64,000 nt of DNA from Tubulanus polymorphus (lineage: Eukaryota; Nemertea; Palaeonemertea; Tubulaniformes; Tubulanidae): the NCBI RefSeq assembly GCF_964204645.1, contig NC_134036.1, positions 1,302,001 through 1,366,000 of the forward strand, in the 5' to 3' direction. Below are positions 4,863 through 62,180 of the stretch, one piece after another; the first letter of the stretch is position 1, and every line of letters starts with the position of its first letter. A model generated the notes under the pieces. That model was not told the origin of the DNA. It made no database searches and saw only the letters and a program-made list of their open reading frames with translations. The position numbers and the translations under genes were made by a program.

Positions 4863-4934
4863 GGCACCGCCCGGATTTGAACCGGGGATCTCCTGTTTAC
4901 TAGACAGGCGCTTTAACCGCTAAGCCACGGCGCC
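4863..4934 (-). tRNA. tRNA-Thr (anticodon AGT)
   Basis: The minus strand gives a complete 72-nt cloverleaf. The 7-bp acceptor stem starts GGCGCCG and ends CGGTGCC, with one G-U pair. The D arm carries a Pol III A box (TGGCTTAGCGG). The anticodon stem CCTGT/ACAGG holds loop CTAGTAA, so the anticodon is AGT (Thr). The T arm carries the B box GGTTCAAATCC. There is no intron and CCA is not encoded. A TTTTT Pol III terminator follows at once (complement of 4858-4862), which supports a functional gene rather than a tRNA-derived repeat. Confidence 0.93.
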
Positions 4935-15092: not shown

Positions 15093-16728
15093 GAATATAT
15101 TTGAGCTTGAAATTTATAAGGAACCGCAAAATTTCATGGGACCCCTATATGATAAACATACTTAACGTTTATTTGTAATAAAAGATTTTTACATGGCAAT
15201 GTAAATACGTTATTCAATGGATTATGTTTTGAGTATTTGCTGTCTCACCATCTATCTGCTTTCAAGAGGCCATTTCAATCTGGAATGAGCATAATCTAAA
15301 ACCTCAGGAGAATATTTCCTAAAAACGCTAGCTTGTGGTGATCAGGAAGAAATTGAGCTGGAAAGCTAAAAAAATAAGAATTTTGGGACTTGTTTCTTGG
15401 CTTCCCGGATTTTTCTTTTTCGCCAAGAGCAAAGAATTGCTTGAAATTTGTGTCATGCTTCGCAGAGTCCCCAGAGTTTTCTGGTCATTTGAATATATTT
15501 GAGCTTGAAATTTATAAGTGACCTCAAAATTTCATAGGACCCCCATATGATAAACATACTTAACGTTTATTTGTAATAAAAGATTTTTACATGGCAATGT
15601 CAATAAGTTATTCAATGGATTATGATTGATTATGTTTCGACTGAGCATTTGCTGCCTCGCCATCTATTATCTCAGCATCTGCTTTCAAGAGGCCGTTTCA
15701 ATCTGGAATGAGCATAATCTAAAACCTTAGGAGAATATTTCCAAAAAACGCAAGCTTGAGGTGATCAGGAAGAAATTGAGCTGGTAAGCTAAAAAGAAGA
15801 ATTTTGGGACTTGTTTCTTGGCTTCCCGGAATTTTCTTTTTTGCCAAGAGCAAAGAATTGCTTGAAATTTGTGTCATGCTTCGCAGAGTCCCCAGAGTTT
15901 TCTGGTCATTTGAATATATTTCAGCTTGAAATTAATAAGGGACATCAAGATTTCATGGGACTCCTACATAATAAACATACTTAACGTTTATTTGTAATAA
16001 AAGATTTTTACATGGCAATGTCAATACGTTATTCAATGGATTATGTTTGTCATCTTCTGATGAGTATTTGCTGTCTCAGCATCTATCTGCTTTCAAGAGG
16101 CCGTTTCAATCTGGAATGAGCATAATCTAAAACCTTAGGAGAATATTTCCAAAAAACGCAAGCTTGAGGTGATCAGGAAGAAATTGAGCTGGTAAGCTAA
16201 AAATAAGAATTTTGGGACTTGTTTCTTGGCTTCCCGGATTTTTCTTTTTCGCCAAGAGCAAAGAATTGCTTGAAATTTGTGTCATGCTTCGCAGAGTCCC
16301 CAGAGTTTTCTGGTCATTTGAATATATTTGAGCTTGAAATTTATAAGGGACATCAAGATTTCATGGGACCCCTATATGATAAGCATACTTAACGTTTATT
16401 TGTAATAAAAGATTTTTGCATGGCAATGTCAATACGTTATTCAATGGATTATGTTTGTCATCTTCTGATGAGTTTTGCTGTCTCGGCATCTATCTGCTTT
16501 CAAGAGGCCGTTTCAATCTGGAATGAGCATAATCTAAAGCCTTAGGAGAATATTTCCAGAAAAACGCTAGCTTGTGGTGATCAGGAAGAAATTGAGCTGG
16601 AAAGCTAAAAATAAGAATTTTGGGACTTGTTTCTTGGCTTCCCGGATTTTTCTTTTTCGCCAAGAGCAAAGAATTGCTTGAACTTTGTGTCATGCTTCGC
16701 AGAGCCCCCAGAGTTTTCTGGTCATTTT
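15093..16728. repeat. Four-copy tandem satellite, about 400-420 bp per unit
   Basis: Units begin with GAATATATTTGAGCTTGAAA at 15093, 15491, 15912 and 16320, giving periods of 398, 421, 408 and 408 bp. Each carries 'CTTAACGTTTATTTGTAATA', 'GAGGCCGTTTCAATCTGGAA' and ends 'CCCAGAGTTTTCTGGTCATT'. Copies are highly similar and differ mainly by small indels. Frames inside it on either strand are shadows of the repeat. It lies directly before the receptor array. Confidence 0.95.
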
Positions 16729-17248: not shown

Positions 17249-20200
17249 ATGTACCATGAAAGAAACATCTTTCGTTTTTTGCTCTTGTTCATTCTATGTT
17301 TATTCATCAGAAACACATCGGGTGAGTTTAATCAAAATCCACTGGTTCCAGAGTTGTTAAAATGTAGAAATTATTAATCTGCTATGATGACAAACCCTAA
17401 AGGCAAGCCCAGAAAGGTGCCATCAGGATCTAAGCCAATCGTTGTTGCGGGTGGAAAGCTCAGAGAAGAACTACAGAAAGAAACTATGTCACTGTCACGA
17501 TTCAAACTATCAATTGTCGGGGTTGGAGAGCTCGGAGAAGAACAATATTTGGATGTTTCAAATAATCTTGTTTTTTATTTTGTCATTTCAGCAAAATGTT
17601 TTGGGAAGAGTTGTATTGGTTGGGAGTGTCATTGCAGTACGCCCCAAAATAAATGTCCAATAAGGGACCCAGAAAGCGCTTTAACATGTCAAACTCCTGG
17701 TACCTGTGAGTCTGCATTTTGGACTGGACCAGCTTGTCAAATCGGTAAGTTTCCTGTATTAACTGTTTCTGCTCCAGTAAAACGAGGTCAAATATCACTG
17801 AACCTCGGATTTATCTCAGATTAACGGATTAACTCAATATTTCGTGCGAAACGGCTCTCATTGAAATGCCCATATAAGGGAAAACGGAAATAGATCCAGG
17901 AATTGCCGTGACTAAAGGTGACACTAATCCGTATACGGATTAACGTCACTAATCCATAAGCGGGAAAAAATCTATTAGTAAAAATATCATAGATTTATGA
18001 AATATCTGGGAACTGTCGACGAACTGAGATCAACTCTAATTATTTCATCGAGTAAAGAAAAAAAAATGTTAGTTTTGTTTAATTCTAGTTGAAATTGTGA
18101 AATAACTTTGAATCAATTTGTGTTTGTTCGTTTTGAAAATTCGTGAAATAATTTAAATCTTCTATTCACAAAATGTGTTTTGTAGGAAACGTGGCTCGTG
18201 GTAAAACAGTTACAATGTCATCCACTCACTCACCCGCTATTAAATGTACAGATGGTCAGACGGTAACAAGTGGTGGTCGTGAAATATGTCACACTAATTT
18301 GGATCAAGACGCCTGGATTAGAATTGATCTCGGAACTCAATACGTGGTACATGAAGTTACACTTTGGGATAGAACAGACGCGACGAGCTGCGACCAGCCG
18401 TGGAGTGAGTACATATTATCATTTTTGATATCATTTATTATTTAGAAACCCTACAGACACCACTGAGGTCACATTTATACTCAACTTTATCAAAAGTAAA
18501 TCAACCAAGGAATATAACTTTGAACTCGAAAAGATTTTTTGAGAATATAGTTTAATCAACCGATTTTCAGACTGTAAATTTGGAATTTACTTTTTCAGTC
18601 GAAAACAATTGGTTTTTACATCTGATGCAATCACGAAATTCTTCCTTGAACTTTCCTCTATTTTATGCTCGATTTCTTTATTTCAAAAATGTACGTATAA
18701 TTCATTTTGAAGGTTCTCTATTTTTTTCTTTTCTCAGAAAAACGCGCGCGCAACCTGGAGATTCGAGTCGGAAATAACCCGAGTATTTTTACATCTAACC
18801 AGAAATGTGCTTACCATGGCCCCGCTCTCTGCGGAACACATAAAACATTAGCATGCAGCCCAGGTCCTATAGTTGGTCGATACGTCACCGTTCAACACAA
18901 GAACATTAGTAAGGCAGAGTATCTCAACCTGGCAGAAATAGAAGTTATCGGGTTCAAATATATCGGTTAGTTTTGCGATTGGAACTGAGAGAGTATGAAC
19001 AAGATTATCAATTTAGAAAGGAATATTCAGTGAATTTTTAATGAGAATTTACCTAACAAATTTGAACGAATAAGTTGTATTTTTGAAATAAGAACTCCTT
19101 TTTACGTGTCACGTGTAACCGTTATTTCTGTTCAACGAATATTAGTTTTTTGTATCACCATTAGATTTCTGTTTTAAATTTCTGTTTAGCACCCGGTGAT
19201 TGTAGTAAGGGATCGAACTCATTTGGATGTATGATTGAATGTAGATGTAACAACAATAGTGAAAGTTGTGACTATTTGAGTGGTATCTGTCAATCTGGCT
19301 GTTCACAGAATTACATCGGAAAGTGGTGCGAGTCAGGTATATTACACTGAATCATAGATTCCTGGGAATCTCACTCCTTATTCCCTGAATATATTAACCA
19401 ATATGAATCGGAAAAGATACCAATTGAAAATGACCGAAAGTAAAGGATCCTTACCCTTCATTTTATTTGATTTACCTGCAATCAACATCGATTTATTTTT
19501 TAGAATTGAAGTTGTTTTCGAATTTGACAAAATCTGCGCTGACAGATAACAGTGTTAATGTCAGTTGGACAGCTTACTCGGGTTCTGTAGTAGATTCAGG
19601 ACGTGGTACTGTCAGCGTTCAGTATCAAGTCGTTTATCGTAAGATATCAGAAAACACTTGGACTAATCAGGAATCTGCAGGAGTCCTTACACATCACACA
19701 ATTACTGGTTTAACTCCTAATACCGAGTATAAGATAGCTGTTAGTCTACAGAAATTAGTTAACAGTCAACTTATATCAACTGCGAGTCAAACTAGTCCAA
19801 TACTAAATATACAGACTTTGTGTGCAGGTAAAAACCCTTCATTCTTATAAACTCTTAAATCACCAATTCAAACACAGAATTGTGTTAAACATGTTTGTTT
19901 TACTGTAGTTCTATTAAACAGTGCTAAAGATGTTCGTGTGGTGCTGCCGTCACCAAGAAGATGTCGATTCGTATTTTATAAGTAATTTGTCTGTCGTGTC
20001 ATTTCAGTACCAGGACCTCCCGCTTCTCTTGACTTCTCATTCACAAAAGATACATTGAAAACTACATTGACATGGACCGCACCAAACAGTCCAAATTGTG
20101 ACTTCATCAATTATCGGGTAGGAATTAACTGGTCCTGATCGGTAGAGGGCACCACCTGCGCTATACTGTAACGTGTCCCTATCTGTTTTCAGCTCACGTG

Positions 20201-23200
20201 TGAACCCATCAGTACAACTTCCACAACACCTTTAACAGACATAAAAACAATCAACAAACCTAAAATCAAAGGCTCCATCACAACTTTAGACATAACGACG
20301 TCACTGATACCTTTTACTCAATACAACTGTTCAATTTTTGCTTTGAATAGTATAGGCGGAGGCTCGCCTGCCAGTGTTAGCTTTTGGACAGGTTTGTAAT
20401 TTGAACACAACGACCTCAAGTTTCCACTGATGTCACTTGTCAAAATTGTCACTTACTGATATTTCAGGTGAAATAACAATTCCCCTACTGGTTGTCAAGA
20501 AAGCAGCGGTAACAGACACGACTGTTACACTTCAAATAACGCGTGTTAACACTGGTAACATCACGTAAGTGTCCTCTTATTTTCATCTATAAATACCGCA
20601 TGATCTTATAAAACAATTTTTATCTGATTTGCAGCGGTTACGAGGTGATCGTGAAGAAACACAATGGACCAATCAGCCGTCGCCGTAAGCTTACAGTCAA
20701 CCAATCACAGTACGTCTCGTACGAAGAAGCTAAACAGCGAGGATTATCAGTTTATATTACTGCAGTTCTACCACCGGAAGTGCCCTCTGAGTTTATAGTT
20801 GGTGATACGCGTAACTATAGTGGTTACTTTAATGCTCCTCTAGAAACTGGGAAATCCTACAGTTTTATTTTAGGAATCATTGAGAATTATAACGGAGTGA
20901 GTTCATCTTGTCTATCAATACAAATTGTAGTTTACAATTTAAAAGCCTCAAGCCTTCTCTTCTCATTGTCTAGCAAACGTTTTGGCATTATCCCCCAATA
21001 GAACAGCAAGAGCGAATCATTGTTAAAGCACCGTGGAGTATTGCATGGATGATAATAGGTGGCGTTGGAGCAGCTCTTCTCACACTCTTATTGATGGCTG
21101 TTGTGCAAGTAATAGTAAGGAGGTACGAGTGAATAGTGGTGACCTCTATAATATTTCATCAGTTGACGATCGCCCCCTATTCACCAAACCCCCTCATTCA
21201 GTTACCCAACACTAATGGACACCTAAACTTTTTCAAATTTTGCAGACGCGGTGGGTGCAAAACTCGACAAACGTCGAACAATGCAGATGTATCCATGGAG
21301 AATATTCCACCTTCCAATGAAAGTATTGGTAAAGCTTTGGAAAGACTGAAGAGTGTCCCGGGGGAAGAAAATGCGAATCAGGAACATACAGCTCATGTAA
21401 ATTCTTCAAGAGCCGTAGAGGAAACTTACTTGAATCGTTCTCAATCATCAACAGAAGGAAATACAACTCATGCAAATTCTTCAAGGGAAGTAGAGGAAAC
21501 TTACTTGAATCGTTCTCAATCATCAACAGAAGGAAATACAACTCACGCAAATTCTTCAAGAGAAGTGGAGGGAACTTACTTGAATCGTTCTCAATCATCA
21601 ACAGAAGGAAATACAACTCACGCAAATTCTTCAAGAGAAGTGGAGGCAACTTACTTGAATCGTTCTCAATCATCAACAGAGGGAAATACAACTCACGCAA
21701 ATTCTTCAAGGGAGTTAGAGGCAACTTACGTGAATTGTTCTAAATCATCAAGAGCAGGAAATACAACTCACGCAAATTTTTCAAGGGAAGTAGAGGGAAC
21801 TTACTTGAATGGTTCTCAATCATCAACAGAAGGAAATACAACTCACGCAAATTCTTCAAGAGAAGTGGAGGCAACTTACTTGAATCGTTCTCAATCATCA
21901 ACAGAAGGAAATACAACTCACGCAAATTCTTCAAGAGAAGTAGAGGCAACTTACGTGAATTGTTCTAAATCATCAAGAGCAGGAAATACAACTCACGCAA
22001 ATTCTTCAAGGGAAGTAGAGGGAACTTACTTGAATGGTTCTCAATCATCAAAAGAGGGAAATACAACCCATGCAAATTCTTCAAGAGAAGTAGAGGCAAC
22101 TTACTTGAATCGTTCTAAATCATCAAGAGCAGGAAATACAGCTCATACAAATTTTTCAAGGGAAGTAAAAGTAACTTATTTTAATCGTTCTAAATCATCA
22201 AAAGAAGCAAAAACAGCTCATACAAATTCTTCAAGGGAAGTAAAGGCAACTTACTTGAATCGTTCTAAATCATCAAGAGCAGGAAATACAACTCATGCAA
22301 ATTCTTCAAGGGAAGTAAAGGCAACTTACTTGAATCGTTCTAAATCATCACGAGAAGGAAATACAATTTATGCAAATTCTTCAAGAGACGTGGAGGCAAC
22401 TTACGTGAATTGTTCTAAATCATCAAGAGAGGGAAATACAGTTTATGCAAATTCTGCATTATCAAGAGGTTTGTCTGGTGAATCTTGTAGATTTTGAGAA
22501 GTTGAAACCTAATTTGTTTTATGATTTTTCTCCATTCCATATAGAAAGCTCCGGGTATATCAATATCTATGAAGATGGAAATGCAGTAGATGAATCGCAA
22601 GATGATGAGGATCATCACTTCGCTTCTAAAGGTGCTACTATGATTTGTGACCTGTTGGGAGACACTTTGATTAAGACCTCTGATAATTGGAAGAATATGA
22701 ATAAAGAATTTCAGGTAGAATCGCCGTGAGGTTGGGACTGCGCGTTGGTAAGACATGTGTTTATGTTCTGGATCTATTTTGTCTTTAGGGTGTTCTCAAG
22801 TTGAGACGTGGATTGAGCGAGTGCGCTGGGAAAGTGGAAAATGTTGAGAAAAACAGCTTTCCAAACATGTTGGCCTGTAGGTATTGCCAGCTCATGACGT
22901 TGACATCAGTTTTGTTATTTAAATGAACTGCATTGTGATATAACTGTATTACTTTATGTCATTCCACTGAGTTAATGTTGTGTTGTCTTTCTAGATGATT
23001 CGACTAGAGTTGTTCTGGAACAAACCGGTGAAGAACCAACATCAGATTACATCAATGCCAACTATATTTGGGTGATAAATCAATCCCTCTCTGCTCTTGA
23101 AAATGTTGCCACGTCCTCCTATTGTATATAAACAGAAATTCTTGTTTTCTTTTTCAGGGACTAACTGGTCATGTGATATGCATTGCTTGCCAGGGTAAGT

Positions 23201-25840
23201 CTTAATAACTTTCCAATAATCTATAATATGCTACTTTGGCGCTCATGGAAGTTGCTCTTTCAGCTCCATTGCCATCTACATTCAATGACCATTGGCGGAT
23301 GATTTGGCAAGAGAAATGTCCGGCTATTATTGTACTCACAGATCTGACTGAAGGACAAGACAAAGATAAGAAGGTATGTCAATACTAGCAGAGGTGGTCC
23401 TGTGTACACAGTCAAAAAGTATAAAAGTGTCTTTTCATATTCCAATTGCAGGTGAAGTGTCATTCATATTGGCCAACAAAACTGAACACGAAAGGTCGAT
23501 ATGGAGATATAACAGTAAAAGTTGCAAAGAAAATGGAAAAACACACTGAGCCTCCGGCAGTGGTTCATTTCCTATCGATTAAAAAGGTGATGATCAACCC
23601 TCTTGTTTTACCATTAGTGACCTAATTGTTGGTATTCATGTTACTGTTGCTATCTCTATAAGTTTGGTTCCGATATCGATTTTGACAACATGCTGTCGAG
23701 GCTCTGTTTTGATACCTTGCATCACATCAGTATTATCTATAACCTGCCTCTCTCTCGATGAGTAACGCTGGATTTACTTTATAGCGTGGCCACAAACAAG
23801 CACATAAACTATTACTGTTCCAATATCGAGGATGGCCGGATCATGGTGTACCGTTCCCGGCTTTATCTGTTGTTCGTATGCAACAGTTCATCAAACAGCG
23901 TCTTACCGACCCGGATCAGGGACTTGTGCTGGTTCATGGCAGGTAAATTAATTCGAAAATCTTCCAGTCCTTTACTGCTAAGGAGACGTGTAGAAATGTT
24001 ATGGCTTGTTTTGTGTTCCCAGTGCTGGTGCTGGAAGGACAGGTTGTTATATCGCAACGGAGCAGCTTCTTGAAAAAGCTAAGAAAGATGGACTCGTTAA
24101 CGTATTCGACATGTTTAGGAAACTCCGTCAACAAAGACCAGAAATGATCCAAAATATGGTAAACCTTAATGTGGCAAATGTCTCTCATTTCACGCTTCCA
24201 AAATCCAAAACTTCTCAAACATGTTGTTTTATTAATATTCCCTGCAGAAACAGTACATTCTCGTGCACCAGATTCTACTGGAGGAACTGGTACTGGGACC
24301 AGTGGCATACCCGACCAGGAGTTTCAGAGAATCATACGAGGAAAGAAAGGCAACGCGCCCTGTATCTAGAAACGTGTCCGACAAAATAGAGGAACAATTT
24401 CTTGTACGTATTAAGTTCGTCCAAAATGAGACGAAGGTTTCGATCCTGGAACAAAAATCTGGATGGTAGCAGTGAACCATTGACCAAGTTAAACTAGAGA
24501 CTAAATCGTTCCTCCTTATGGGTCCTAATTGTTTCATCTTGGTTTGGTTTTGAGGGAAACAATTTTTTCACTGAGCTTCTATTAATACAGGTGTTGAAGG
24601 CATCGGCTCCGATTCAGGACGAGGAATCACTAGCAGTGGCCAAACTACTCAACAATGTTTACAAGTCTCGATACGAAGACATCCTTCCCGAGGCACAGTA
24701 TCAACCGCAACTCTCACATAAAGGGTTCATTAATGCTTCATTTGTGCACGTGAGTTTGATTATGATTTCATAGCTATCCGTAGAATATCCGGGCAGATCC
24801 GGTGGAGGGACATTATGACTCGATATTCTTCTGTCGAGATAAGATGTAAGAATCTGACTGATGTAAATACTTTCTTTTTTACAGACGATCACAGATGACA
24901 ACGTGTCTATAACCACACAAAGTCCAATGCCAAACACAATTACTGACTTCTGGCAAATGATCTTTGACTATAACTGTGAAATTATTGTGATGATGCATCA
25001 AGAATATCCACAAGATCCGGTAAGGCTTACTCCTATTCTAGGACTGCCTTATCTAGATGTCTCCTAAAATACATCTTCTGATTTTAGACATATGCAAGCT
25101 ACTGGCCTGCAGCTGGAAGCATCAAATGCAGTCCTTTTACAATCACTGTGGAGGAAGTTTCATTACTCTGTAAGACCATCGTTCGTCGGGATTTGACCAT
25201 CCAAAAACAGAATGTATGTTGAGTTTAATATTCTCGATAGCACCTTTTCAAAGATAGGTGGCTGTATTTTTCGGAATTTCCTTCGACATTGCTATTTACT
25301 ATGACCTGATCAGATCAATTGTATTTCTTTGATTTCACAGGAATCGCATCTGATTCGTCAGATCCAGTTTTTAGGATGGCCTGAGGATGAGTCAGTTCCT
25401 GATTTACAATATCTATTCGAGTTTGTGAAGTTAGTTACAAGAGAACACGTCACCAGTCCTATTGTTGTACATTGCATGTTCGTATCTTAGCAACATCAGT
25501 CAATTATTTAAAACAACATTACACATTTTAACGATTATGCAAATTTTGAAGGGACAGCACAACGAGAACAGGGCTATTTTGTGCGGCATTTGAACTGATC
25601 TCCAAGGCGCCATCTAGCGAAAAAATCGACATTTATCACTGTATACAAAAACTACGAATGACTCGACCTCAATTCATTCCAAATTTGGTAAGAAATTTAT
25701 CGATTTCGTAGTAGTTTTTACAAGAAATTGCATGGATGTATTTTTCTTTTTTTTTTTATTTATAGGAACAATACAAGTTACTGCATGAACTGGTGATATT
25801 GTATTTACAAGGACACGACACTTATGTGAACCTTAGTTAG
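17249..25840 (+). CDS. RPTP gene 1: receptor-type pseudophosphatase with 14 YxN repeats
   Basis: Twenty-seven exons keep frame and predict 1672 aa: 17249-17321, 17592-17744, 18186-18404, 18738-18965, 19190-19336, 19504-19827, 20008-20117, 20193-20391, 20468-20564, 20635-20896, 20974-21122, 21246-22468, 22545-22714, 22789-22876, 22995-23071, 23158-23194, 23264-23373, 23452-23586, 23785-23942, 24023-24158, 24248-24403, 24591-24749, 24885-25019, 25088-25213, 25341-25477, 25552-25687, 25766-25840. Order: signal peptide (1-24), EGF-like (25-75), fucolectin-like FTP (76-224), EGF-like (225-273), three FN3 (274-604), membrane helix (about 622-650), juxtamembrane repeats (700-1061), D1 (about 1118-1417), D2 (1418-1672). 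D1 keeps WPD (D1286) but has [10 protein letters not shown], with Gly1319 for the catalytic Cys, and KNSF for the usual KNRY. D2 has WPE and HCMDSTTRTG (Cys1602, Arg1608). The tail ends TYVNLS. Exon borders are by eye against three paralogues. Confidence 0.88.
18186..18965 (+). other. Gene 1 fucolectin-like (F5/8-type) domain, two exons
   Basis: Exons 18186-18404 and 18738-18965 encode [12 protein letters not shown], then [28 protein letters not shown], and LEIRVGN to RYVTVQHKN and LAEIEVIGF. This is the jelly-roll pattern of the FTP/F-type lectin family. The family's fucose site uses a His and an RxDx4(R/K) motif; here RTD is present but the later basic residue is Asp. Sugar binding may therefore be lost or changed, which is inference. 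Confidence 0.75.
19908..19985 (+). pseudogene. Fossil FN3 exon in gene 1 intron
   Basis: 'ATTAAACAGTGCTAAAGATG' followed by TTCGTGTGGTG matches the start of the FN3 exon at 33030-33127 (gene 2) and 53918-54015 (gene 4). The rest of the exon and its partner are gone. The remnant lies before the next FN3 exon and is skipped without loss of frame. Confidence 0.7.
21382..22468 (+). repeat. 14.5-unit 75-bp coding repeat with a YxN motif in each unit
   Basis: A 75-bp unit (25 aa) is repeated from 21382, 21457 and so on every 75 bp, ending with a partial unit from 22432. A typical unit reads [20 protein letters not shown] then SKSSR or QSSTE. All 14 full units keep T-Y-[L/V/F]-N, although neighbouring positions vary (E/G/A/V before TY, R/C/G after N). 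pY-x-N is the core ligand of the Grb2 SH2 domain. The array lies just after the membrane helix on the cytoplasmic side. Gene 2 has one such unit; genes 3 and 4 have none with this motif. Confidence 0.95.
22789..24403 (+). other. Gene 1 PTP domain D1 (catalytic Cys replaced)
   Basis: Eight exons encode the fold from [18 protein letters not shown] through [35 protein letters not shown], the signature [10 protein letters not shown] (split between 23942 and 24023) and [14 protein letters not shown]. Gly is encoded by GGC where TGC (Cys) is expected, a one-base difference. WPD and the Arg remain. Confidence 0.9.
24591..25840 (+). other. Gene 1 PTP domain D2
   Basis: Six exons encode the second PTP fold: [64 protein letters not shown] and [13 protein letters not shown]. 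The CX5R core is kept, but the P-loop glycines are gone and WPD is WPE, as in many receptor D2 domains. It ends with TYVNLS. Confidence 0.88.
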
Positions 25841-30164: not shown

Positions 30165-41377
<11,213 letters not shown>

Positions 41378-43224: not shown

Positions 43225-46200
43225 ATGTATCGTGAAAGAAACATCTTTCGTTTTCTGCTGTTGTTGATTCTGTGTTTATTCATCACAAACACATCAGGTG
43301 AGTTAATCAATAATAATTCATTGGTTCCAGAGCTGTTGAAAACGTGGAAATTATAGATTTGACGATTTCAAACCTTAAAGTAGACCTCAGAAAGATGCGA
43401 CAAGGAAAAGTCTGTCACTGTCAGGATTCAAACTATCAATTGTCGGGGGTGGAGAGCTCAGGATGGAGCGACATTTGGAGAAGGGCATTTTAGGATAGGC
43501 AAAAAATGTTGTTTCTGTGTTTGTTATTTCAGCGAAATGTTTTGGGAAGAGTTGTACCGGTTGGTTGTGTCATTGCAGTAATACAGCTTTGAATGTGTGT
43601 CCAATCAAGGGTCAGAATATAGATGGCGCTTTAACGTGTCCAAATCATAACACTGCATGCGAGTCTACAATAAAAATTCCATATCTTTGACTTTATAATG
43701 CGACGTGAGTTATTGCAGATTCAAACTATAGCTATGTCACAAATATTTGCAGGTTGTGGCTCTAGGTAAAAAGGGTTGGGGACCACGGAGTGAAATTGTT
43801 TACTTTTTGGCGCAAGTCGGAAGTAAGTTAAGGCCTTTTTTTAATTAGTTGGAGCACGAATTTTTAAAGGAAGATTTTGGAAGGGTGAAGAAAAAAAAAA
43901 TTTAAAAAAATTTGGTATTTTATATAACAATGGAAGGGTGAGTGGGAAAAAAAGAAAATAAAAAAATCATTTTTCATTGCTATCTTATATACTAATGTGG
44001 AAGGAGAAACAATAAAATAAAAAAAAATTTATTAGCGGTGAGGTTGTTGACAGAACTCACTACTCGTCTGTCGTTCTCGCGATGCAACTTTCTCACGATT
44101 ACTTGGAAACAGAAAGTTTCCTCGACGGCGGTGGCGTTGGCGTGACCGGCCATTTTGTTGCCATACTAACAGCAGCACGAAACCGTCAAATTATTCAATT
44201 CAAATTCAAATCAAGTTCATTTTCATGAATAAGATGTCCGATGAGAGACAGAAAAAACAAAATTTGAATTTTTTTCATACAGAAATTGAATTTTAGGATG
44301 GAAGGCGGTCAAAACAAATATGAATAATTAATTATTTTACAAAATGTGCGAATTTATGTGGAAGGGCGACGGAGATAGAAATTAAAAAAAGGAATTTCCC
44401 AATTACCAAAATGACCCGAATATCGGCGGCGGATCCTTGCTCCAACTAATTTAAAGAAAAGGCCTAAGCAGTATCGTTGGAAATTTCAAATTCAAGGGAT
44501 CGTAAGTTAAAATCTATCTGTGGTGTTTATTTCAGTACCAGGACCTCCCGCTTCTCTCGACTTCTCATTCACAAAGGATACATTGAAAACAACATTGACA
44601 TGGATAGCACCAAACAGTCCAAATGGTGACATCATTAATTATCGGGTAGGAATTCTCTTGTCCAGACCTGTAGAGGGCACCACCTGTTCTATACTGTAAC
44701 ATATCTCCTATCTGTTTTCAGCTCACGTGTGAACCCATCAGTACAACTTCCACTACACCTTTATCAGACATAAAAACAATCAACAAACCTAAAGTCATAG
44801 GCTCCATCACAACTTTAGACATAACGACGTCACTGATACATTTTACTCAATACAACTGTTCAATGTATGCCTCAACTAGTAAAGGTGAAGGCTCACCTGC
44901 TTATGTATAATCCACGACCTCTAAAAACCAACGCAAATATCTTATCATTTGATAATCGTCCGATGCCCCCTAGTCACAGAAATACCCACTCACCGAGTTA
45001 CCCACAATTTCGACGCCTTTCTTTTCTTTTGCAGACGCGGTGGGTTCAAAACTAAAGAAGCATCGAACAATGAAGTATCCATGGAGAATATTTCACCTTC
45101 CGATAAAAGTATTGGTAAACCTTTGGCAAGATTGAAGGGTATCCAAAAACAGGAACATACAGCTTATATAAATTCTACATTTTCAAGAGGTTTGTCTATT
45201 GAAGCTTTTAGATTTTGGAAGTTGAAGCCTAAAAATGTTTTTTAACACCAAAGATTCTTCTCCACGTAGAAAGCTCCGTGTATTGCAATATCTATGATGA
45301 TCCGGAAACGCAAGATGGCGAGGATCATCACTACGAAATCGCTTCTAAAGGCGCTACTATGATTTGTGACCTGTTGGGAGACACCTTGATGAAAACCTCT
45401 GATGGATGGATGAATATGAATGAAGAATTTCAGGTAGAATTGTAGGGAGGTTGGGACTGCGCGTTGGTAAGGTTTACATTTTGGAACTCTTTTATCTGTA
45501 GAGTGTGTTCTCAAGTCCAGACGTGGATTGAGCGAGTGCGCTGAGAAAGGAGAAAATGCTGAGAAAAACAGGTTTCAAAACATATTTGCCTGTAAGTATT
45601 ACCTGTTCATCATGTTGATATACCTCATTTTATACCTGTATCTTGCCAGGTCATCGATCTTATTTATTTAGTGAAACATCTCTATTGTCGTATTATTGAC
45701 TTTTAAGTGTGGTGTTGCTTTTTTCTAGATGATTCGACTAGAGTTGTTCTGGAACAAACCGGTGAAGATCCAACATCAGATTACATCAATGCCAATTACA
45801 TTCGGGTAAGGAATCAATCCGCCTCTGCTCTTGAGAAGTTTTTGTCCTGTGCTTATAATCAATGTTGTTGTAGATGATATGGATATTCCATTTTCAGGAA
45901 ATGAAAAAATTAATTTCAGAGCTTGCCAGGGTCAGTTTTGTTACCTTTCTCATAATCATTTACAAAGTCAATTCAACTTTCTATTCAACTTTCTGATAAT
46001 GGATTTTTTTCATCGCATTTTGATCCTCATGTTGTCATTTCAGCTCCATTGTCATCTACAATCAGTGACCATTGGCGGATGATTTGGCAAGAGAAATGTC
46101 CGGTTATTATTGTACTCACTGATCCTACTGAAGGACAAGGCAAAGATAAGAAGGTTTCAAAGCAACTACTGAGTAAACATAAGTTTTTGAAAATTTTAAC

Positions 46201-48646
46201 TTTTGATATTCCAATTGCAGGTGAAGTGTCATCTATATTGGCCAACAAAACTGGATGCAACAGGTCGATATGGAGATATTACAGTGACAGTTGCAGAGAA
46301 AATGGAAAAACACATTGAGCCTCCGGCAGTGGTTCATTTCCTATCGATTACAAAGGTAATGATCATACTCTTGTTTTACCATGGCACCTAGTGACCTATA
46401 TAAGTGCTGTTATCTGTAATTTCAAACGACTTCATACGTGTAGACATCGATATGACAACATTTTATGATGAGGTTCTGTTTCGATGTTACATTATATCAC
46501 ATAAGCAATATCTATAACCAGTCTCTATTGATGAGTAACGTTGGATTTAATTTATAGCGTGGCCACAAACAAGCACATAATCTAATAGTTTGTCACTATC
46601 GAGGATGGCCGGATCATGGTGTACCGTTCCCGGCTTCATCTGTTGTTCGTATGCAACAGTTCATCAAACAGCGTCTTACTGACCCGGATCAGGGACTTGT
46701 GCTGATTCATGGCAGGTAAATTAATTCGAAATCTTCCGGTCCTTTACCGTTAGGGAGACGTGTAGAAATGTTACGGCTAGTTTTGTGTTCTCAGTGCTGG
46801 TGCTGGAAGGACAGGTTGTTATATCGCAACGGAGCAGCTTCTTGAAAAAGCTAAGAAAGATGGACTCGTTAACGTATTCGACATGTTTAGGAAATTACGA
46901 CAACAAAGACCAGAAATGATCCAAGATATGGTAAATCTTAATAAAGTTACTGCCTCTCATTTCACGCTTCCAAAATGGATAACTTCAACGTGTTCCTTTA
47001 TTACTATCTACTTTAGAAACAGTACATTCTCGTGCACCAGATTCTACTGGAGGAACTGGTACTGGGACCGGTGGCATACCCGACCACGAGTTTCAGAGAA
47101 TCATACGAGGAAAGAAAGGCAACGCGTTCTGTATCTAGAAACGTATCTGACAAAATACAGGAACAACTACTAGTACGTTTTAAGATCGGCCAAAATGAGA
47201 TGAAGGTTTCGAAGCCTGAGTACATACATTAAGATTGCAGCAATGAATTCACTGACCAAGTTAAACTAGAGACCAAATAGTTTCTCCTTGATTTTGAGGA
47301 GACATTTTTTAAAAAGTTTTTCCAAAGAGCTGTTTTCCAATCCAGGTTCTGAAGGCATCAACTCCGATTCAGGACGAGGAATCACTAGCAGTGGCCAAAC
47401 TACTCAACAATGTTAACAAGTCTCGATACAAAGACATCCTTCCTGAGGCACAGTATCAACCGCAACTCTCGCATAAAGGGTTCATTAATGCTTCATTTGT
47501 GCACGTGAGTTTGATTCTGATTTAATAGCTATCCGTGGAATATCTGGGCAGGTAGAGAATGAGGCATTAGCCTAGATATTCTTCATTTGAGATCCTGATA
47601 ACTCATGAAAATCTAATCGTAACTTTCCTTTTAACAGACGATCACAAATGCTGACGTTTTTATAGCTACACAAAGTCCACTACAAAATACAATTTTTGAT
47701 TTCTGGCAAATGATCTTTGACTATAACTGTGAACTTATTGTGATGATGCATCAAGAATATCCACAAGATCCGGTAAGGCTACTCCTAGTCTAGCACTGCC
47801 TAGTATAGATATCTTCTAAAAGTATGACGGTCTGGTTCGCGGAGATCCTTGTTCAGAATATATCTTCTAATTTCAGACATATGCAGACTATTGGCCTGCA
47901 GCTGGAAGTATCGAATTCGGTCCTTTTACAGTCACTGTGGAGGAGGTATCATTATGCTGTAAGACCATCGTTCGTCGGGATTTGATCCTCCAAAAACAGA
48001 ATGTATGTTGAGTTATTTCGGTAGCTACTGTTCAGAGAAATATGGCTGCATTTTTCGGAATTTCTTTCGACGTTGCTATTTACAATAACCTGATCAGATC
48101 AATTGTATTTCTTCGATCTCACAGGAATCACATCAGATTCGTCAGATCCAGTTTTTAGGATGGCCTGAGGATGAGTCAGTTCCTGATGTACATAATCTAT
48201 TCGAGTTTGTGAAGTTAGCTAAAAGTGAACGCGTCACCAGTCCCATTGTTGTGCATTGCATGTTCGTATCTTAGCAACGTCAGTCAATTATTCAAAACAC
48301 CATCACATATTTATCGATTATGCAAATTTTACAGGGACAGCACAACGAGAACGGGACTGTTTTGTGCGGCATTTGAACTGATCACCAAGGCGCCATCTAG
48401 CGAACAAATCGACATTTATCACTGTATACAAAAACTACGAATGACTCGACCTCAATTCATTCCAAATTTGGTAAGAAATTAATCGATTTTCTTTGTATTT
48501 TCACGAGTAATTTTATTGATGTATTTTTCTTGTTTTCGTATTCATAGGAACAGTACAAGTTTCTACACGATCTGGTGATATTCTATTTACAAGGATTCGA
48601 CACTTATGTGAACGTACATGTCGTTAATGGCACCAGCACAGATTGA
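43225..48646 (+). pseudogene. RPTP gene 3: deleted, probably a pseudogene
   Basis: Exon 1 (43225-43297, signal peptide) and the EGF exon (from 43533) are present, but the EGF frame stops at 43688-43690 (TGA) where the text jumps into an FN3 region. FTP, second EGF and first FN3 exons are missing. Remaining blocks: 43753-43822, 44536-44645, and 44722-44910 (ends GSPAYV-stop, fused to the intron after the membrane exon, so the membrane helix is lost), then 45035-45189, 45270-45433, D1 exons 45504-45591, 45729-45805, a ruined exon near 45898-45930, 46044-46153, 46221-46355, 46558-46715, 46795-46930, 47017-47172, and D2 exons 47346-47504, 47638-47772, 47877-48002, 48125-48261, 48335-48470, 48548-48646. 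The PTP exons are otherwise open. D1 has [10 protein letters not shown]; the tail is TYVNVHVVNGTSTD. Confidence 0.8.
43829..44467. mobile_element. PIF/Harbinger-like non-autonomous DNA element (633 bp)
   Basis: Terminal inverted repeats of about 27 bp (left starts GGCCTTTTTTTAATTAGTTG, the complement of the right starts GGCCTTTTCTTTAAATTAGT) are flanked by TAA on both sides (43829-43831 and 44465-44467). A 3-bp TWA duplication is typical of the PIF/Harbinger group. The interior is A-rich and has no open transposase frame. It is inserted 6 bp after the splice donor of the FN3 exon at 43753-43822. Confidence 0.8.
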
Positions 48647-54619: not shown

Positions 54620-57600
54620 ATGTACACACTTATTTCGATGCTTTTACAATCACTTCAGCTCCGGGACCTGTGACGTCGCTCACGCTTTCCCAACAAACCG
54701 ACATCGGCTTCTGGGTCAAGTGGTCAATTGCACCTGATGAACACAATGGAATGATCACTAAATACAGATTGTGGTACAAACTTCTCAGATATAAAACTTG
54801 TCCGACTGCAGCTCGCGGAGGTGATCCTAAGGAAGTTTCACTTTCAAATATTGCTGTAGAACATGTATTCACTGGGTTAAAGCCTTATGCGGAATATGAA
54901 ATCACGGTCTCGGCCGAAACCTCGGCTGGTGGCTTAGATCTAAACAAGAGGACAGTTACCGGTGCAACTCTTCAGTCTGGTTAGTTGTTAGATTTACAAC
55001 GATAAACCAAACACATCAAACATTTCGTTGTAACCAATAAATCTTTCCCTCAATGTTACAGAACCAACTGGTAAACCTGGCGTGGCTGATGTCACTGTTG
55101 AGACTATTCAAGATAGCTCTGTTAGAACAGACACTTATATCGATGCTACTTTCAAGGATTTGGCGTGTGAAAACCAAAATGGACCATTCAAACATTTCAA
55201 ATATAAGTTACTGGAGAAAGATTCGATGAATCTTGTGAAAGATGGAACGACACCGAATAAACTGTTCAGAATAGATAAACTGGTTCCGTTTACAGAGTAT
55301 GAACTGACGTATAACTGGGTGAACAGTAAAGGTTCCAGTGAAGAATCTCCAAGTAAAATATTCACAACTGACGAAGCTGGTGAGTTTTGTTTTCATTTTG
55401 TCTTCCGTAGTTAAACCTTGAAAACATCATTGGATCAAGATGAGTTTATACATTTCAGTTCCAGGTGTACCGATCCCTGAAGCTCGATCAGCTACTCCAA
55501 ACAGTATCATATTCGCGTGGAGTTCTCCTGTTCCTCCGTTAGCAAGAATTATCAAATATAATTTCATGTGTGGCAACGCTACTAAAAATAATTCTGATCA
55601 AATTCAGGAATTTATAAGGGAGGATGTTGAACCAACTGTGCTTACAAAAACAGTGACTGGACTTACACAAAACAAATGGTATGGTTGCCAGGTAGGTGTG
55701 AATTTATAAATAATGTCATTATTGCGACTTCACTAATTGCAGATCCAAACTAATTTGTCACAAAGGTTGTGGCTCATTTTCAGCAATAATGGATTGAAAT
55801 TAAACAGATTTAATACACATTCATAGGTAATGGCACAAGGTAAAAAGGGTTGGGGAAAATGGAGCAACATTGCTTACTTTTTGGCGCAGGTCGGAAGTAA
55901 GTAAACAATATGTTGGAAATGGCAATTCACACGATCGTATTATTGAATTTTTTTGAATAAACCCTCATTCCAATAAACTCTTAATCATCAATTCAAACAC
56001 AGAATTGTGTTAAACATGTTTGTTTTACTGTAGTTCCATTAAACAGTGCTAAAAATGCTATTAGGTTGTCGTCATCAAGTAGATGTCAATTCGTATTTCA
56101 TAAGTCATTTGTCTGTCGTGTCATTTCAGTACCAGGACCTCCCGCTTCTCTCGACTTCTCATCTACAAGGGATACATTCCAAACAACATTGACATGGACA
56201 CCCCCAAACAGTCCAAATGGTGACATCATTAATTATCGGGTAGGAATTCTCTTATTCTGACCAGTAGAGGGCACCACCAGCTCTATACTGTAACATGTCT
56301 CCTATCTGTTTTTAGCTCACGTGTGAACCCATCAGTACAACTTCCACAAAACCTTTATCAGACATAAAAACAATCAACAAACCTAAAATCGAGGCTTTCA
56401 TCAATGGATCCATCACAACTTTAGACATAACGACGTCACTGATACATTTTACTCAATACAACTGTTCAATTTATGCCTCAACTAGTAAGGGCGAAGGCTC
56501 GCCTGCCAGTGTAAGCTTCTGGACAACGGGTAAGTCGTTAACATGCATTAAAACACAACAAACTCAAGTATCAATTTATGTCATGTATCACCAGTTCAAA
56601 TAACTGATATTTCAGGTAAAATAACAATTCCTCAACTTGTTGTCAAGAAAGCAGCGGTAACAGACACGACTGTTACACTTCAAATAACACGTGTTAACAC
56701 TGGTAACATTACGTAAGTGTCCTCGTTACATTTATCCATAAATAACGCGTGGTTTTATTAAACTGGATTTTTCTCTGATTTTCAGCGGTTACGAGGTGAT
56801 CGTGAAGAAACACGATGGACCAATCAACAGTCGCCGGAAGCGTGCAGTCAACCAATCACAGTACGTCTCGTACGGAGAAGCTAAACAGCGAGGATTATCA
56901 GTTTATATTACTGCAGTTCTACCACCGGAAGTGCCCTCTGAGTTTATAGTTGGTGATACGCGTAACTATAGTGGTTACTTTAATGCTCCTCTAGAAACTG
57001 GGAAATCCTACAGTTTTATTTTAGGAATCATCGAAAATTATAACGGGGTGAGTTTATCTTGTGTTTCAATACAAATAGTTTTCAGTTTTGAAATGATTTT
57101 CAATCAATTCTTTCTATTTATTTCCTAGGAACTGTTTCGGCATTATCCACCAATAGAACAACAAGAGAGAATCACTGTTAAAAAACTGTCTAGTAATGCA
57201 TGGATAATAGGTGGCGTTGTTGCAGCTGTTCTAATAGTGTTATTGGTGGCTGTTGTTCTATTTGTAGTTTGGAGGTAGGAGCGAATAGTGGCGACCTCTA
57301 TAATTGAATGCAAATATCCTATCATTTGACAATCGGCAAAATTCCATTGATTCCATCTCATTCAGTTACCCACAATATGGACGCCTCAGTCTAGTCCCAG
57401 CGGGCTATTGCATTCACTTTTACTCCGTCGTCCGTCCGTCCGTCCGTCCGTCCGTAGAAGGAATCCAGTTATTTTGGGAAGTTTTGAAGACGCTACGATG
57501 TAATGTCTTGATATTTGGGTTACACATGTATCTATTCTAGACACATCTTCAGCCCAAAAAGTGGCCCTGTCAGAATCAAGATGGCTGACTGGCAGCCTTT

Positions 57601-60600
57601 GAACTTTTTGAGGCAAATTTTGAAGACGCTTTGATCAATTACCTTGATCCTTCGAATATATTTGAATCCTCCAAGGGCTCATCAGCATAAGAAAAATTGG
57701 GTCGATCGGACTCGAGATGGCCGTCCTATGACCTTTTTAGTGGCCAAAAATGTCAATTTTGGCCAGAATTCGGAGTCCTGTAGCTTCCTGCTGGTTTGCC
57801 ATTTCTCATTGCAATTTGTGATGGGTATTCATTGAAAAGGGATGTTTTATACTAGAGACAGGTATTTTTGATCAGCCAATTATGACGGCCATCTTGGTGT
57901 CATCAGTTCTTCCACATTATATTGATACCTAAGCATATTTTGTTACCACAATCAATTAGAAAGTTGTAGCCCATAAAGTGTTCTATGATGTCGGTGAGTT
58001 TAAAGGTCATTGGTTTTTGTATATGGCCACCAGGGGGCGTTGAACAATAGATTGATATTTCAATATTATATTTGTACCTATGCATATTTTGATACCACAA
58101 TCAATTGCAAAGTTGTAGCTCATGACATCGTCTATGATTGTGGTGAGTTTTAAGGACATTAGTTATTCTATATGGTCACCAGGGGGCGTTGAATAGTAGA
58201 AGAACTTAGTATTTCCTTATTATATTGGTACCTAGGTATATTTTGTTACCATGATCAATTGCAAAGTTGTAGTTCATGACATCTATGATTGTGGTGAGTT
58301 TCAAGGTCATTGGTTTTTGTACATGGTCACCAGGAGGCGTTAAATATTGAAATTGTTAGATTGTTGAGCATTTGAAACCACTTCCCAAGTGGGCATGGTG
58401 TCCTAGTTTCACATCGTTCGAAACTGACAAACATCGAACAATGCCCCCTATTCACAGCCCCTCGCCGAGTTACCCAACAATATGGTCTTTACTTAAGCAG
58501 ACGCGGTGGGTTCAAAACTAAAGAAACTTCGAGCAATGAAGTAGGCATGGAGATTGTTTCACCTTCCGATAAAAGTATTGGAAAACCTTTGGCAAGATTG
58601 AAGGGTAACCCAAGACGAGAAAATACAGCTCATGCGAATTCTACATTATCAATAGGTTTGTTTAATGAAGCTTTTATATTTGAAGCCCAATGTTTTAACA
58701 CTATAATGACTCATGACTCTCTCCATATAGAAAGCTGCGCGTATTACAGTATCTATGACGATCCGAACACAGTATATGATACGCAAGATGGCGAGGATCA
58801 TCATTACGACATATCTTCTAAAGGCGCTACTATTATTTGTGACCTTTTGGGAGAGACCTTAATGAAGACCTCTGATGAGTGGAAGAATATGAATGAAGAA
58901 TTTCAGGTAGAATTGTAGGGAGGTTTGGACTGCGCGTTGGTAAGGTTTACATTTTGGATCTCTTTTTTTCCGTAGAGTGTTCTCAAATTTAGACGAGGAT
59001 TGAGCGACTGCGCTGAGAAAGTGGAGAATCTTGCAAAAAATAGGTTTCCAGACATATTGGCCTGTAGGTATTACCTGGTGATCATATAGACACATGAGTT
59101 CTGTCGTAACAACAATCATTTTGACACAAGCTTTTACACATTAACAGGAGTCGCCTTGAAATTAGTGATACATAGTATAATTTATTACCTATATGTTGAC
59201 ATAAGTTCCATCATTTACAAGATCCGCCTTCTTCAACATCTCTATTAATCTTTTTGTCATTTAAATGATTAGAACTGCTTTGTGACATCATTTTGTGTTG
59301 TTTTTCTAGATGATTCGACTAGAGTTGTTCTGGAACAAATCGGCGAAGATCCAACATCAGATTACATCAATGCCAATTACATTTGGGTAAGGAATCAATC
59401 CTTCTGTTCTTGAGAAGTTTTTGTCTCGTGCTTATAATGTTGTCATAGTTGATGTGAATATTTCATTTTCAGGGATTGACTGGTCATGTAATATGCATTG
59501 CATGCCAGGGTAAGTCTTCTTAACATTCCAATAATCTGTTCCGATGTTATTTTGGCGCTCATGTAAGTCGGTATTTCATTTTACTTGCCCTTTCAGCTCC
59601 ATTGCCATCTACAATCAATGACCATTGGCGGATGATTTGGCAAGAGAAATGCCCGGCTATCATTGTACTCACCGACCTGACTGAAGGACATGGCAAAGAT
59701 AAGAAGGTTGCAAAAAAATTTTTTCGAAAAAGGCTTTCAGATGCTGCTGATTAAACAAGGAGAATTATGAAAAATGTGTCTTTTCATATTCCAATTGCAG
59801 GTGAAATGTTACTTATATTGGCCAACAAAACTGGACACAAAAAGTCGATATGGAGATATAACAGTGACAGTTGCAAAGAAAATGGAAAAACACACTGAGC
59901 CTCCGGCAGTGGTTCATTTCCTATCGATTACAAAGGTAATGATCATACTCTTGTTTTACCATGGCACCTAGTGTGACCTATATAAGTGCTGATATATGTG
60001 ATTTCAAAACGACTTCACTCGAGACATACGTGTAGACATCGATATGACAACATTTTATGATGAGGTTTTGTTTCGATGTAACATTGTTTGACATCAGTAT
60101 TGTCTATGACCAGTCTCTCCCGATGAGTAACTTGAGATTTATTTCATAGCGTGGCCACAAACAAGCACATTATCTACTAGTGTTTCACTATCGAGGATGG
60201 CCGGATCATGGTGTACCGTTCCCGGCTTCATCTGTTGTTCGTATGCAACAGTTCATCAAACAGCGTCTTACTGACCCGGATCAGGGACTTGTGCTGATTC
60301 ATGGCAGGTAAATTAATTCGAAAATCTTCCAGTCCTTTACCGTTAAGGAGACGTGTAGAAATGTTATTGTTTGTGTTGTGTTCTCAGTGCTGGTGCTGGA
60401 AGGACAGGTTGTTATATCGCAACGGAGCAGCTTCTTGAAAAAGCTAAGAAAGATGGACTCGTTAACGTATTCGACATGTTTAGGAAATTACGACAACAAA
60501 GACCAGGAATGATCCAAAATATGGTAAACCTGTAGTAACTGTCTCTCATTTCACGCTTCCAAAATCCAAAACTTCTCCAACATGTTGTTTGACTATCTAC

Positions 60601-62180
60601 TTTAGAAACAGTACATTCTCGTGCACCAGATTCTACTGGAGGAACTGGTACTGGGACCGGTGGCGTTCCCGACCACGAGTTTCAGAGAATCATACGAGGA
60701 AAAAAAAGCAACGCGTCCTGTATCTAGAAACGTGTCTGATAAAATAGAGGAACAATTTCTAGTACGTATTAAGATCGGCCAAAACTAGACGAAGGGTTCG
60801 ATCCTGGCACAAAGTTAGGATGGCAACAATAAAATCAATGACCAAATCGTGTTTCCAAATAGTTTCTCCTTGTTTTTGAGGAAACAATTTTTTCAATGAG
60901 ATTCTATTAATACAGGTATTGAAGGCATCGACTCCGATTCAGGATGAGGAATCACTAGCAGTGGCCAAACTACTCAACAATGTTTACAAGTCCCGATACA
61001 AAGACATCCTTCCCGAGGCACAGTATCAACCGCAACTGTCACATAAAGGGTTCATTAATGCTTCATTTGTGCACGTGAGTTTGATTCTGATTTAATAGCC
61101 ATCCGTAGAATATCCGGGCAGTTTTAGCAGATAGATAATGATAGATTAAAAAAAGATAGATCGATAATTTGCGAAAATCTAATAAGAAGACTTACCTTTT
61201 TACAGACGATCACAGATGCATACCTGTTTATAGCTACACAAAGTCCTCTACAAAAGACAATTAATGATTTCTGGCAAATGATCTTTAAATATAACTGTGA
61301 ACTTATCGTAATGATGCATCAAGAATATCCACAAGATCCGGTAAGGCTTATTCTTAAGTGCAGTACTACCTTATCTTGATATCTCATAAAATACATTTTC
61401 TGATTTCAGACATATGCAAGCTATTGGCCTGGAGTTGGAAGTATCAAATTCGGTCCTTTTACGATCACTGTGGAGGAAGTTTCATTGCCCTGTAAGACCA
61501 TCGTTCGTCGGGATTTGATCCTCCAAAAACAGAATGTATGTTGACTTTTTTTTCGGTAGCTACTTTTCAGAGAAAGATGGCTGCATTTTTCTAAATTTCC
61601 TTTGGCATTGCTATTTACTATGACCTTATTGTTTCTGTAAACGGTATATGTTATATTTCACTACAGGAATCGCGTCGGATTCGTCAGATCCAGTTTTTAG
61701 GATGGCCTGAGGATGAGTCAGTTCCTGATTTACAATATCTATTCGAGTTTGTGAATTTAGTTACAAGAGAACACGTCACAAGTCCTATCGTTGTACACTG
61801 CATGTTCGTATCTTAGCAACAACAGTCAATTATTCAGAAAACATATTCTATAACAATATCACAATATAAAAAGATTATGCAAATTTTACAGGGACAGCAC
61901 AACGAGAGCAGGGCTATTTTGTGCGGCATTTGAATTGATCTCCAAGGCGCCATCTAGTGAACAAATCGACGTTTATCACTGCATACAAAAACTACGAATG
62001 ACTCGACCTCAATTCATTCCAAATTTGGTATGAAATTAATTTCGAAATGTTCTAAAAAAGAAGTGATAGTGTCAATCATTGATAAATCTTTTTTCGTTAT
62101 TATAGGAACAATACAAGTTGCTGCATGACCTTGTGATATTCATCTTCCACGGATTCGACACTTATATGACCCTTAATTAG
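50974..62180 (+). CDS. RPTP gene 4: receptor pseudophosphatase with seven FN3 domains
   Basis: Thirty-three exons keep frame and predict 1758 aa: 50974-51046, 51334-51528, 51851-52063, 52750-52989, 53211-53357, 53523-53837, 53918-54015, 54235-54463, 54659-54979, 55062-55379, 55459-55691, 55827-55896, 56130-56239, 56316-56529, 56616-56712, 56786-57047, 57129-57274, 58501-58655, 58731-58906, 58976-59063, 59310-59386, 59473-59509, 59597-59706, 59801-59935, 60150-60307, 60388-60523, 60606-60761, 60916-61074, 61206-61340, 61410-61535, 61667-61803, 61892-62027, 62106-62180. Order: signal peptide, EGF (25-89), FTP (90-240), EGF (241-289), seven FN3 (290-1045), membrane helix, short juxtamembrane region, D1 (1205-1503), D2 (1504-1758). 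D1 has WPDHGVP and [10 protein letters not shown] (Gly1405); D2 has HCMDSTTRTG (Cys1688). The tail is TYMTLN, so the YVN of genes 1 and 2 is lost. AATAAA lies at 62418. Confidence 0.87.
51085..51300. repeat. 72-bp minisatellite, three units, in intron 1 of gene 4
   Basis: Units start with AAACTCTGTC at 51085, 51157 and 51229 (period 72). Each contains 'CAGGATTCAAACTATCAATT' and 'GTGGAGAGCTCAGAG'. Genes 1 and 3 have about one unit in the same intron (near 17455-17545 and 43405-43470); gene 2 has none. The unit is open in one frame, but it lies between a good donor (51047) and acceptor. Confidence 0.9.
54490..54620. repeat. Imperfect (TA)n microsatellite in gene 4
   Basis: A TA-rich tract interrupted by TAAT and 'GCATTATACATT', at the position that corresponds to the pure TA run of gene 2, right after the second FN3 domain. 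Frames through it are artefacts. Confidence 0.93.
54659..55896 (+). other. Three FN3 domains found only in gene 4
   Basis: Exons 54659-54979 (APGPVTSLTLSQQTD to GLKPYAEYEITVSAETSAGG), 55062-55379 (EPTGKPGVADVTVE to FTEYELTYNWVNS), and 55459-55691 with 55827-55896 (VPGVPIPEARSATPNS to VMAQGKKGWGKWSN). Each has the FN3 start (PG/P), core Trp or Tyr and the YxxxV strand. Phases fit their neighbours. The last exon survives in gene 3 (43753-43822), so the block existed before genes 3 and 4 separated. Confidence 0.82.
57390..58406 (-). mobile_element. Helentron/'pearl'-like non-autonomous element in gene 4 intron
   Basis: An insertion of about 1 kb absent from the same intron of genes 1-3. It carries a (CCGT)n microsatellite (57426-57456), single-copy text, three core repeats of about 150 bp (about 57915-58345) and a right end with hairpin CCACTTCCCAAGTGG (58378-58392) followed 10 nt later by CTAG before a T. 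Core repeats beside an ACGG-type microsatellite are the plan of mollusc pearl elements, and hairpin plus CTAG is a Helitron-type 3' terminus. No Rep/Helicase is encoded. The left border (TC at 57390) and the strand are uncertain. Confidence 0.6.
57915..58345. repeat. Three core repeats of about 150 bp with GTCACCAGGGGGCG
   Basis: Units align at 'TTACCACAATCAATT' (57943, 58092, 58246) and 'AAAGTTGTAG', and each ends with CACCAGGGGGCGTTGAA or CACCAGGAGGCGTTAAA. These lie at about 58027, 58177 and 58329. Confidence 0.85.
58410..58500 (+). pseudogene. Fossil juxtamembrane exon in gene 4 intron
   Basis: 'GAAACTGACAAACATCGAAC' followed by AATG matches the start of the juxtamembrane exon of genes 1 and 2 ('AAACATCGAACAATGCAG'). 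It is followed by a second copy of the upstream intron ('CGCCGAGTTACCCAACAATA') and then by the real exon at 58501. This is a partial duplication of the exon and its 5' intron. Confidence 0.6.

Follow-up and report, generated by a model that had tools for sequence, protein, structure and literature searches.

The receptor-type protein tyrosine phosphatase (PTP) gene LOC141914037 (gene A) of the nemertean Tubulanus polymorphus was found to carry, in the exon that follows its transmembrane (TM) helix, fourteen tandem units of 25 residues with TYxN in each; the best reading of this segment is an expanded, putative multivalent phosphotyrosine docking array on a receptor pseudophosphatase (probability about one half). 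The window, i.e., the whole stretch of DNA analysed, was 64,000 nt long (GCF_964204645.1, NC_134036.1, positions 1,302,001–1,366,000, forward strand); it also holds paralogues B, C and D of gene A, and the positions given are those of the window.

Table 1: Features of gene A and of its paralogues in the window.
Feature	Position	Strand	Remarks
Gene A, receptor-type PTP	17249..25840	+	27 exons; predicted model of 1682 aa
Exon 1, signal-peptide-like N terminus	17249..17321	+	absent from NCBI isoform X2
Exons 3–10, ectodomain	18186..20926	+	F5/8-C-like galactose-binding, Cys-rich, fn3, Fn3_PTPRU-like
Exon 11, TM helix	20974..21122	+	RRR at exon 11/12 junction
Exon 12, juxtamembrane exon with array	21246..22468	+	1223 nt; phase 2 in, phase 1 out
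14 tandem 25-residue units, TY[LVF]N in each	21376..22425	+	unit starts 21376 + 75k, k = 0–13
Partial 15th unit	22426..22467	+	VYAN
Exon 13, extra juxtamembrane motif	22545..22714	+	GYINIYED
Exons 14–21, PTP domain D1	22789..24403	+	WPD loop present; P-loop Gly for catalytic Cys
Exons 22–27, PTP domain D2 and C-terminal tail	24591..25840	+	HCMDSTTRTG, WPE; tail TYVNLS
Paralogue B, TM to stop	37669..41377	+	one array unit; D1 Gly; tail TYVNLS
Paralogue C, juxtamembrane to stop	45035..48646	+	no full unit (TAYINSTFSR half); D1 Gly
Paralogue D, TM to stop	57129..62180	+	no full unit (TAHANSTLSI half); D1 Gly; tail TYMTLN

The array was delimited by TRF at 21380–22455 (75-bp unit, 14.3 copies, 90% matches, 0% indels); TRF, translation, the exon 12 model and NCBI protein P0001 agreed on the 14 full in-frame units described in the initial annotation, the middle residue of TYxN being L in 10, V in 3 and F in 1. 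No stop codon or indel was seen across the 14 units. A further YxN, IYAN, lies in unit 13; together with VYAN of the partial unit and the exon 13 motif, YxN accounts for 17 of the 18 juxtamembrane Tyr residues of gene A, a multi-site arrangement of 17 predicted cytoplasmic motifs near the membrane.

Gene A was modelled with GT-AG introns throughout and matched P0001 (isoform X2, a predicted database protein of 1587 aa) at 100% over the region searched; the isoform has its start inside exon 3 and splices exon 10 from an earlier donor, and its array residues are identical with those of our model. N termini resembling that encoded by exon 1 were present in P0002, P0006 and P0008. The layout is that of a tandem-domain receptor PTP: fn3, Fn3_PTPRU, one TM helix and two PF00102 stretches. 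The best hydrophobic 21-mer was P0001 546–566, followed by RRR; since exon 12 lies between this helix and the two PTP domains, the domain order supports a cytoplasmic array, in agreement with the side of the membrane first proposed for it. Joining of exon 11 to exon 13 gave a stop codon, i.e., skipping of exon 12 shifts the frame, and a skippable cassette exon was thereby ruled out; a chance open frame or pseudogene was ruled out by the 27 exons joined by GT-AG introns, by the exon order kept in B and D, and by the NCBI protein with the full array.

Full units numbered 14 in A, one in B and none in C and D, and the sharp difference between neighbouring paralogues that had been noted at the outset was reproduced. 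C and D keep just the second half of the unit, TA-Y/H-xNS. The first half was found in four of P0002–P0010 (the nine nearest listed receptors), with YxN in each, and gene A has both forms; the TAxxNS site of the same nine proteins holds Tyr in one and S, N, H, D or F in the other eight. Units 3 and 6 are identical and block 3–5 differs from block 6–8 by 2.2%; the units are recent duplicates that arose by block duplication, and the gene A juxtamembrane segment is one ancestral YxN unit expanded by tandem and block duplication. The TM, juxtamembrane and PTP exons follow in matching order in B and D. Exon projection over window 42700–49000 located neither a TM exon nor exon 16 for paralogue C, and the tail is altered (TYVNVHVVNGTSTD); this paralogue is possibly a degenerate or soluble copy.

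Ten of the 25 columns are invariant across the units (T5, N9, S11, R12, T17, Y18, N20, S22, S24, S25), compared with 5.0–5.8 expected (P 0.002–0.010, uniform-rate model); this excess of change-free columns indicates that some constraint acts on the units. The constraint is uneven along the unit, and Y18 and N20 are just two of the ten columns held. TYxN was retained in 14 of 14 units across about 37–40 inferred amino-acid changes; the probability that Y18 and N20 would both stay unchanged in amino acid was about 0.02–0.04 under a uniform-rate model that ignores gene conversion and the post hoc choice of the motif. The initial annotation had stated that Y and N are conserved while their flanks vary: the invariance of both residues was confirmed, but eight other columns are equally invariant and, because of these, Y and N are not singled out by conservation. 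Its further step, in which this conservation was taken as a sign of selection on Y and N, is not supported in that form, as the units are recent block duplicates and omega between them was 0.74 (pooled) or 0.76–0.86 (parsimony). Between genes A–D, omega was 0.82–1.31 for exon 12, 0.30–0.65 for exon 13, 0.19–0.51 for D1 (6 pairs) and 0.22–0.44 for D2, calculated without most array units of A and without exon 16 of C; the exon 12 value, which thus refers to sequence outside most of the array, marks the exon as loosely constrained.

These values bear on the main rival explanation, a tolerated coding minisatellite, which is a real possibility, though one with the odds against it: the 75-bp unit would have spread in a loose linker by slippage or unequal exchange with array length nearly neutral, YxN would have come along passively, and the array would serve at most as a spacer between the membrane and D1. 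The head-to-tail, near-identical units with block duplications (seen in a single assembly) are those of a coding minisatellite, and the 2.2% difference between blocks, the identity of units 3 and 6, the inter-unit omega of 0.74–0.86 and the near-neutral flanks in exon 12 all fit it, as do the occurrence of the array in only one (P0001) of the 16 listed Tubulanus paralogues, the further tandem arrays in the window and a different juxtamembrane repeat in P0013 and P0014. It is opposed by the ten change-free columns (under the same uniform-rate model), by the 14 units free of stops and indels, and by YxN at 17 of the 18 juxtamembrane Tyr.

For the docking array, a precedent was found within the family. 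The C terminus of gene A is TYVNLS, a PTPRA-like tail, and 14 of the 16 listed Tubulanus paralogues have YxN within their final 12 residues (P0007 and P0009 end in TYMTLN). In the 210 non-Tubulanus proteins listed, YxN was found in the last 25 residues of 40 and in the last 7 residues of 29, one of which (P0219) has an EYLN that looks like helix and not like a tail; C-terminal YxN carriers outside Tubulanus include Lineus, Owenia, Lingula, Branchiostoma and Ptychodera proteins, with the tail FDTYANFK in Owenia and Ptychodera. Among the matches of the first, vertebrate-rich listing, just 1 of 104 non-Tubulanus proteins has a C-terminal YxN. PTPRA has one such tail site. It is likewise an RPTP with a cytoplasmic YxN (Tyr789/798, yANFK), and gene A and 13 of the 15 other listed Tubulanus paralogues end in YxN; gene A differs in its 17 further juxtamembrane YxN motifs and in its Cys-less D1. 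Passages of the cited papers name SRC and GRB2 as partners of the human PTPRA tail yANFK (PMC3694890) and describe binding of Grb2 by Tyr789 (PMC7959691, PMC11048185). As the Tubulanus C-terminal YxN resembles this Grb2/Src docking site, docking has a precedent in the family.

The array itself was compared with 226 proteins among the matches listed (union of two listings with many near-duplicates; 16 Tubulanus, 210 others). Among the matches listed, juxtamembrane YxN was most numerous in P0001 (17), followed by P0183 (4), the juxtamembrane counts excluding 30 of the 226 proteins without a D1 anchor; within any 150 residues, P0001 has 8 YxN and the others at most 4 (all 226 listed). None of the other 225 listed proteins has an array as dense, in keeping with the opening claim that no other RPTP with such an array was known. 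The nine nearest listed receptors have 0–2 juxtamembrane YxN; this low number counts against the docking reading, as do the loose constraint on exon 12, the want of Tyr at the TAxxNS site in eight of these nine, the single C-terminal YxN among the 104 proteins of the first listing and the outcome of the array search given below. Of juxtamembrane Tyr residues, 16/52 stand in YxN in the 15 listed Tubulanus proteins besides P0001 vs 63/711 in the 104 other RPTPs of the first listing, which favours it, the rows of this comparison being related and not independent. The search of related genomes for comparable YxN arrays, proposed with the initial annotation, was carried out: 7990 candidates were scored and only P0001 was returned, by a procedure that relies on shared 5-residue words and could therefore miss diverged arrays. 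Among the papers listed in a literature search mostly outside subscription journals, none on such a receptor was found; one on the evolution of R3 RPTPs was listed (PMC5336234).

The D1 P-loop has HG instead of HC in genes A–D and in P0001–P0010 and does not conform to HCX5R; the Gly codon of gene A is GGC, close to the end of exon 19. P0005 has HGRAGAGRTG and the other nine of P0001–P0010 share another HG form. Cys-to-Gly in D1 is thus common to 10 of the 16 listed Tubulanus paralogues; Cys is kept in P0011, P0012, P0018 and P0020. The ten Gly-D1 proteins form one clade beside P0011/P0012 (FastTree, read without support values), and most simply the D1 Cys would have been lost once; P0008 lies on a contig of another length class than the remaining nine (11548486). 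Among the 210 non-Tubulanus proteins listed, the P-loop had Cys in 198, Gly in none and no match in 12; this tally takes the first P-loop pattern match, which may be that of D2 where D1 is altered, and the pattern matched nowhere in 2 Tubulanus proteins. Loss of the catalytic residue, together with the low D1 omega over the 6 pairs, places gene A among predicted receptor pseudophosphatases and suggests that the Gly-bearing D1 is kept under purifying selection. D2 retains HCMDSTTR(T/A)G or a close form, with WPE (WSE in P0010) and no P-loop glycines, and would be weak or inactive; as it retains HCX5R, loss of all phosphatase activity remains a prediction.

STYX is a soluble protein of the dual-specificity type, unlike a receptor that bears classical PTP domains in tandem. 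Like gene A D1, it has Gly in place of the active-site Cys, and it is described as inactive in a passage of PMC8269279. Gene A resembles PTPRU in its Fn3_PTPRU-like membrane-near domain, its tandem PTP domains and its predicted inactive D1; it differs in that PTPRU retains HCX5R and gene A D1 has Gly for Cys. We know of no such array in PTPRU. According to parts of the cited texts, the membrane-proximal domain of tandem RPTPs is generally the active one, and PTPRU is proposed to sequester substrates (PMC7959691); PTPRU keeps HCX5R and is credited with activity in some reports (PMC8269279). In a more distant lineage, P0013 and P0014, the D1 P-loop is HCSSGCGWTG, with Trp at the Arg position; these proteins were also seen to carry 3 and 2 copies, respectively, of a juxtamembrane repeat of roughly 108 residues with LYETVV/LYETVE and KNRYRNIV-like motifs.

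Read as a docking array, gene A would encode a single-pass tandem-PTP receptor whose D1 is without the catalytic Cys. A Src-type kinase would phosphorylate the TY[LV]N tyrosines, probably helped by upstream acidic residues; YxN-selective SH2 adaptors of the Grb2 kind might then bind many sites at once, and the clustered receptor could gather adaptor and Sos-type partners. D1 should not hydrolyse phosphotyrosine and so would not erase array sites in cis; it may bind and shield phosphotyrosines. With D1 inert toward the sites and adaptors gathered, the receptor would serve to organise its partners rather than to dephosphorylate. The multivalent phosphotyrosine scaffold first proposed is supported in part, by the cytoplasmic position, the unskippable exon, the YxN precedent in the family and the want of a comparable array among the listed proteins, but not by the argument from Y/N conservation: the docking reading has gained the precedent and a pseudophosphatase setting, and it can no longer appeal to Y and N as residues set apart by conservation.

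LAT and FRS2 have several pYxN sites, few and non-repeated, and p130Cas is a soluble adaptor with 15 YxxP motifs in non-identical context. The product of gene A is not a LAT or FRS2 protein and may, by analogy, work like them: all are membrane-tethered chains with several YxN sites (the phosphosites of gene A being putative), and gene A differs in that its tandem units, 14 in number and nearly identical, belong to a receptor phosphatase. With the p130Cas substrate domain it shares a long run of repeated tyrosines, SH2-docking in p130Cas and putatively so in the array. Formation of condensates by LAT, Grb2 and Sos1 is reported in PMC6624021.

An evolutionary extension of the docking reading is put forward tentatively and is, as a whole, rather doubtful: the D1 nucleophile would have been lost in the ancestor of the ten-protein clade and a juxtamembrane YxN unit of one member then amplified to reach 17 sites, as a membrane-tethered nucleator of Grb2-type assemblies, of tunable length and no longer erasable by its own D1. 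The altered D1 and the juxtamembrane repeat of P0013/P0014 suggest that the acquisition of juxtamembrane Tyr repeats may go together with a D1 that no longer catalyses; the other nine Gly-D1 paralogues, which have no array, count against such a link. Should the array prove to be a docking scaffold, closely related paralogues that have 0, 1, 2 or 17 juxtamembrane YxN on one receptor frame would form a natural valency experiment, in which it is directly testable how the number of sites affects condensation or the recruitment of adaptors; the lineage would then be one of RPTPs moving from enzyme to scaffold, with the single PTPRA tail site extended to an array.

It is very unlikely that the array serves serine/threonine signalling or another reader instead of a Grb2-type SH2 adaptor: S + T make up 32.6% of residues, there are 20 [ST]xx[DE] sites, and S11, S22, S24 and S25 match Y and N in invariance; the family precedent, on the other hand, favours phosphotyrosine with Asn at +2. 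A β-solenoid stalk that lifts D1 off the membrane, with structural tyrosines, is judged very improbable. AlphaFold2 (single sequence) predicted a β-solenoid for exon 12 alone (mean pLDDT 69.9), with strands in every unit and a mean pLDDT of about 64–85 per 10-residue block over most of the array; V/I/L/M/F/W, on the other hand, make up only 9.4%, charge and hydropathy fall on the disordered side, no PDB entry matched at E ≤ 0.001 (the best had E 0.37), and no Pfam family was found at E ≤ 0.01. At these thresholds a known folded domain in exon 12 was rejected. AlphaFold2 solenoids for near-perfect repeats are a known artefact, and the exon 12 model is probably one; if real, the solenoid could bury or fix the array tyrosines. 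Scarcely credible is an extracellular, N-glycosylated array with N-x-S/T as the conserved element, for which the 38 sequons in 350 residues and the x-S after the Asn of every TYxN would speak, and which was ruled out by the position of the TM helix (RRR on the array side), by the PTP domains downstream, and by the same TM–juxtamembrane–PTP exon order in paralogues B and D.

Several further features of the window were recorded. Directly upstream of gene A, a 408-bp tandem repeat (four copies, 92% matches) spans 15092–16727. A fragment akin to ectodomain parts of A, B and D lies at 29900–33650 and is followed by a 234-bp (AT)n stretch at 33683–33916. A 72-bp tandem repeat (2.9 copies at 97%) at 51085–51291 falls within an open reading frame close to where gene D begins, and a related stretch is found near 17434 in gene A. 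A tRNA-Thr (AGT) was located at 4862–4934 on the minus strand by Rfam and ARAGORN.
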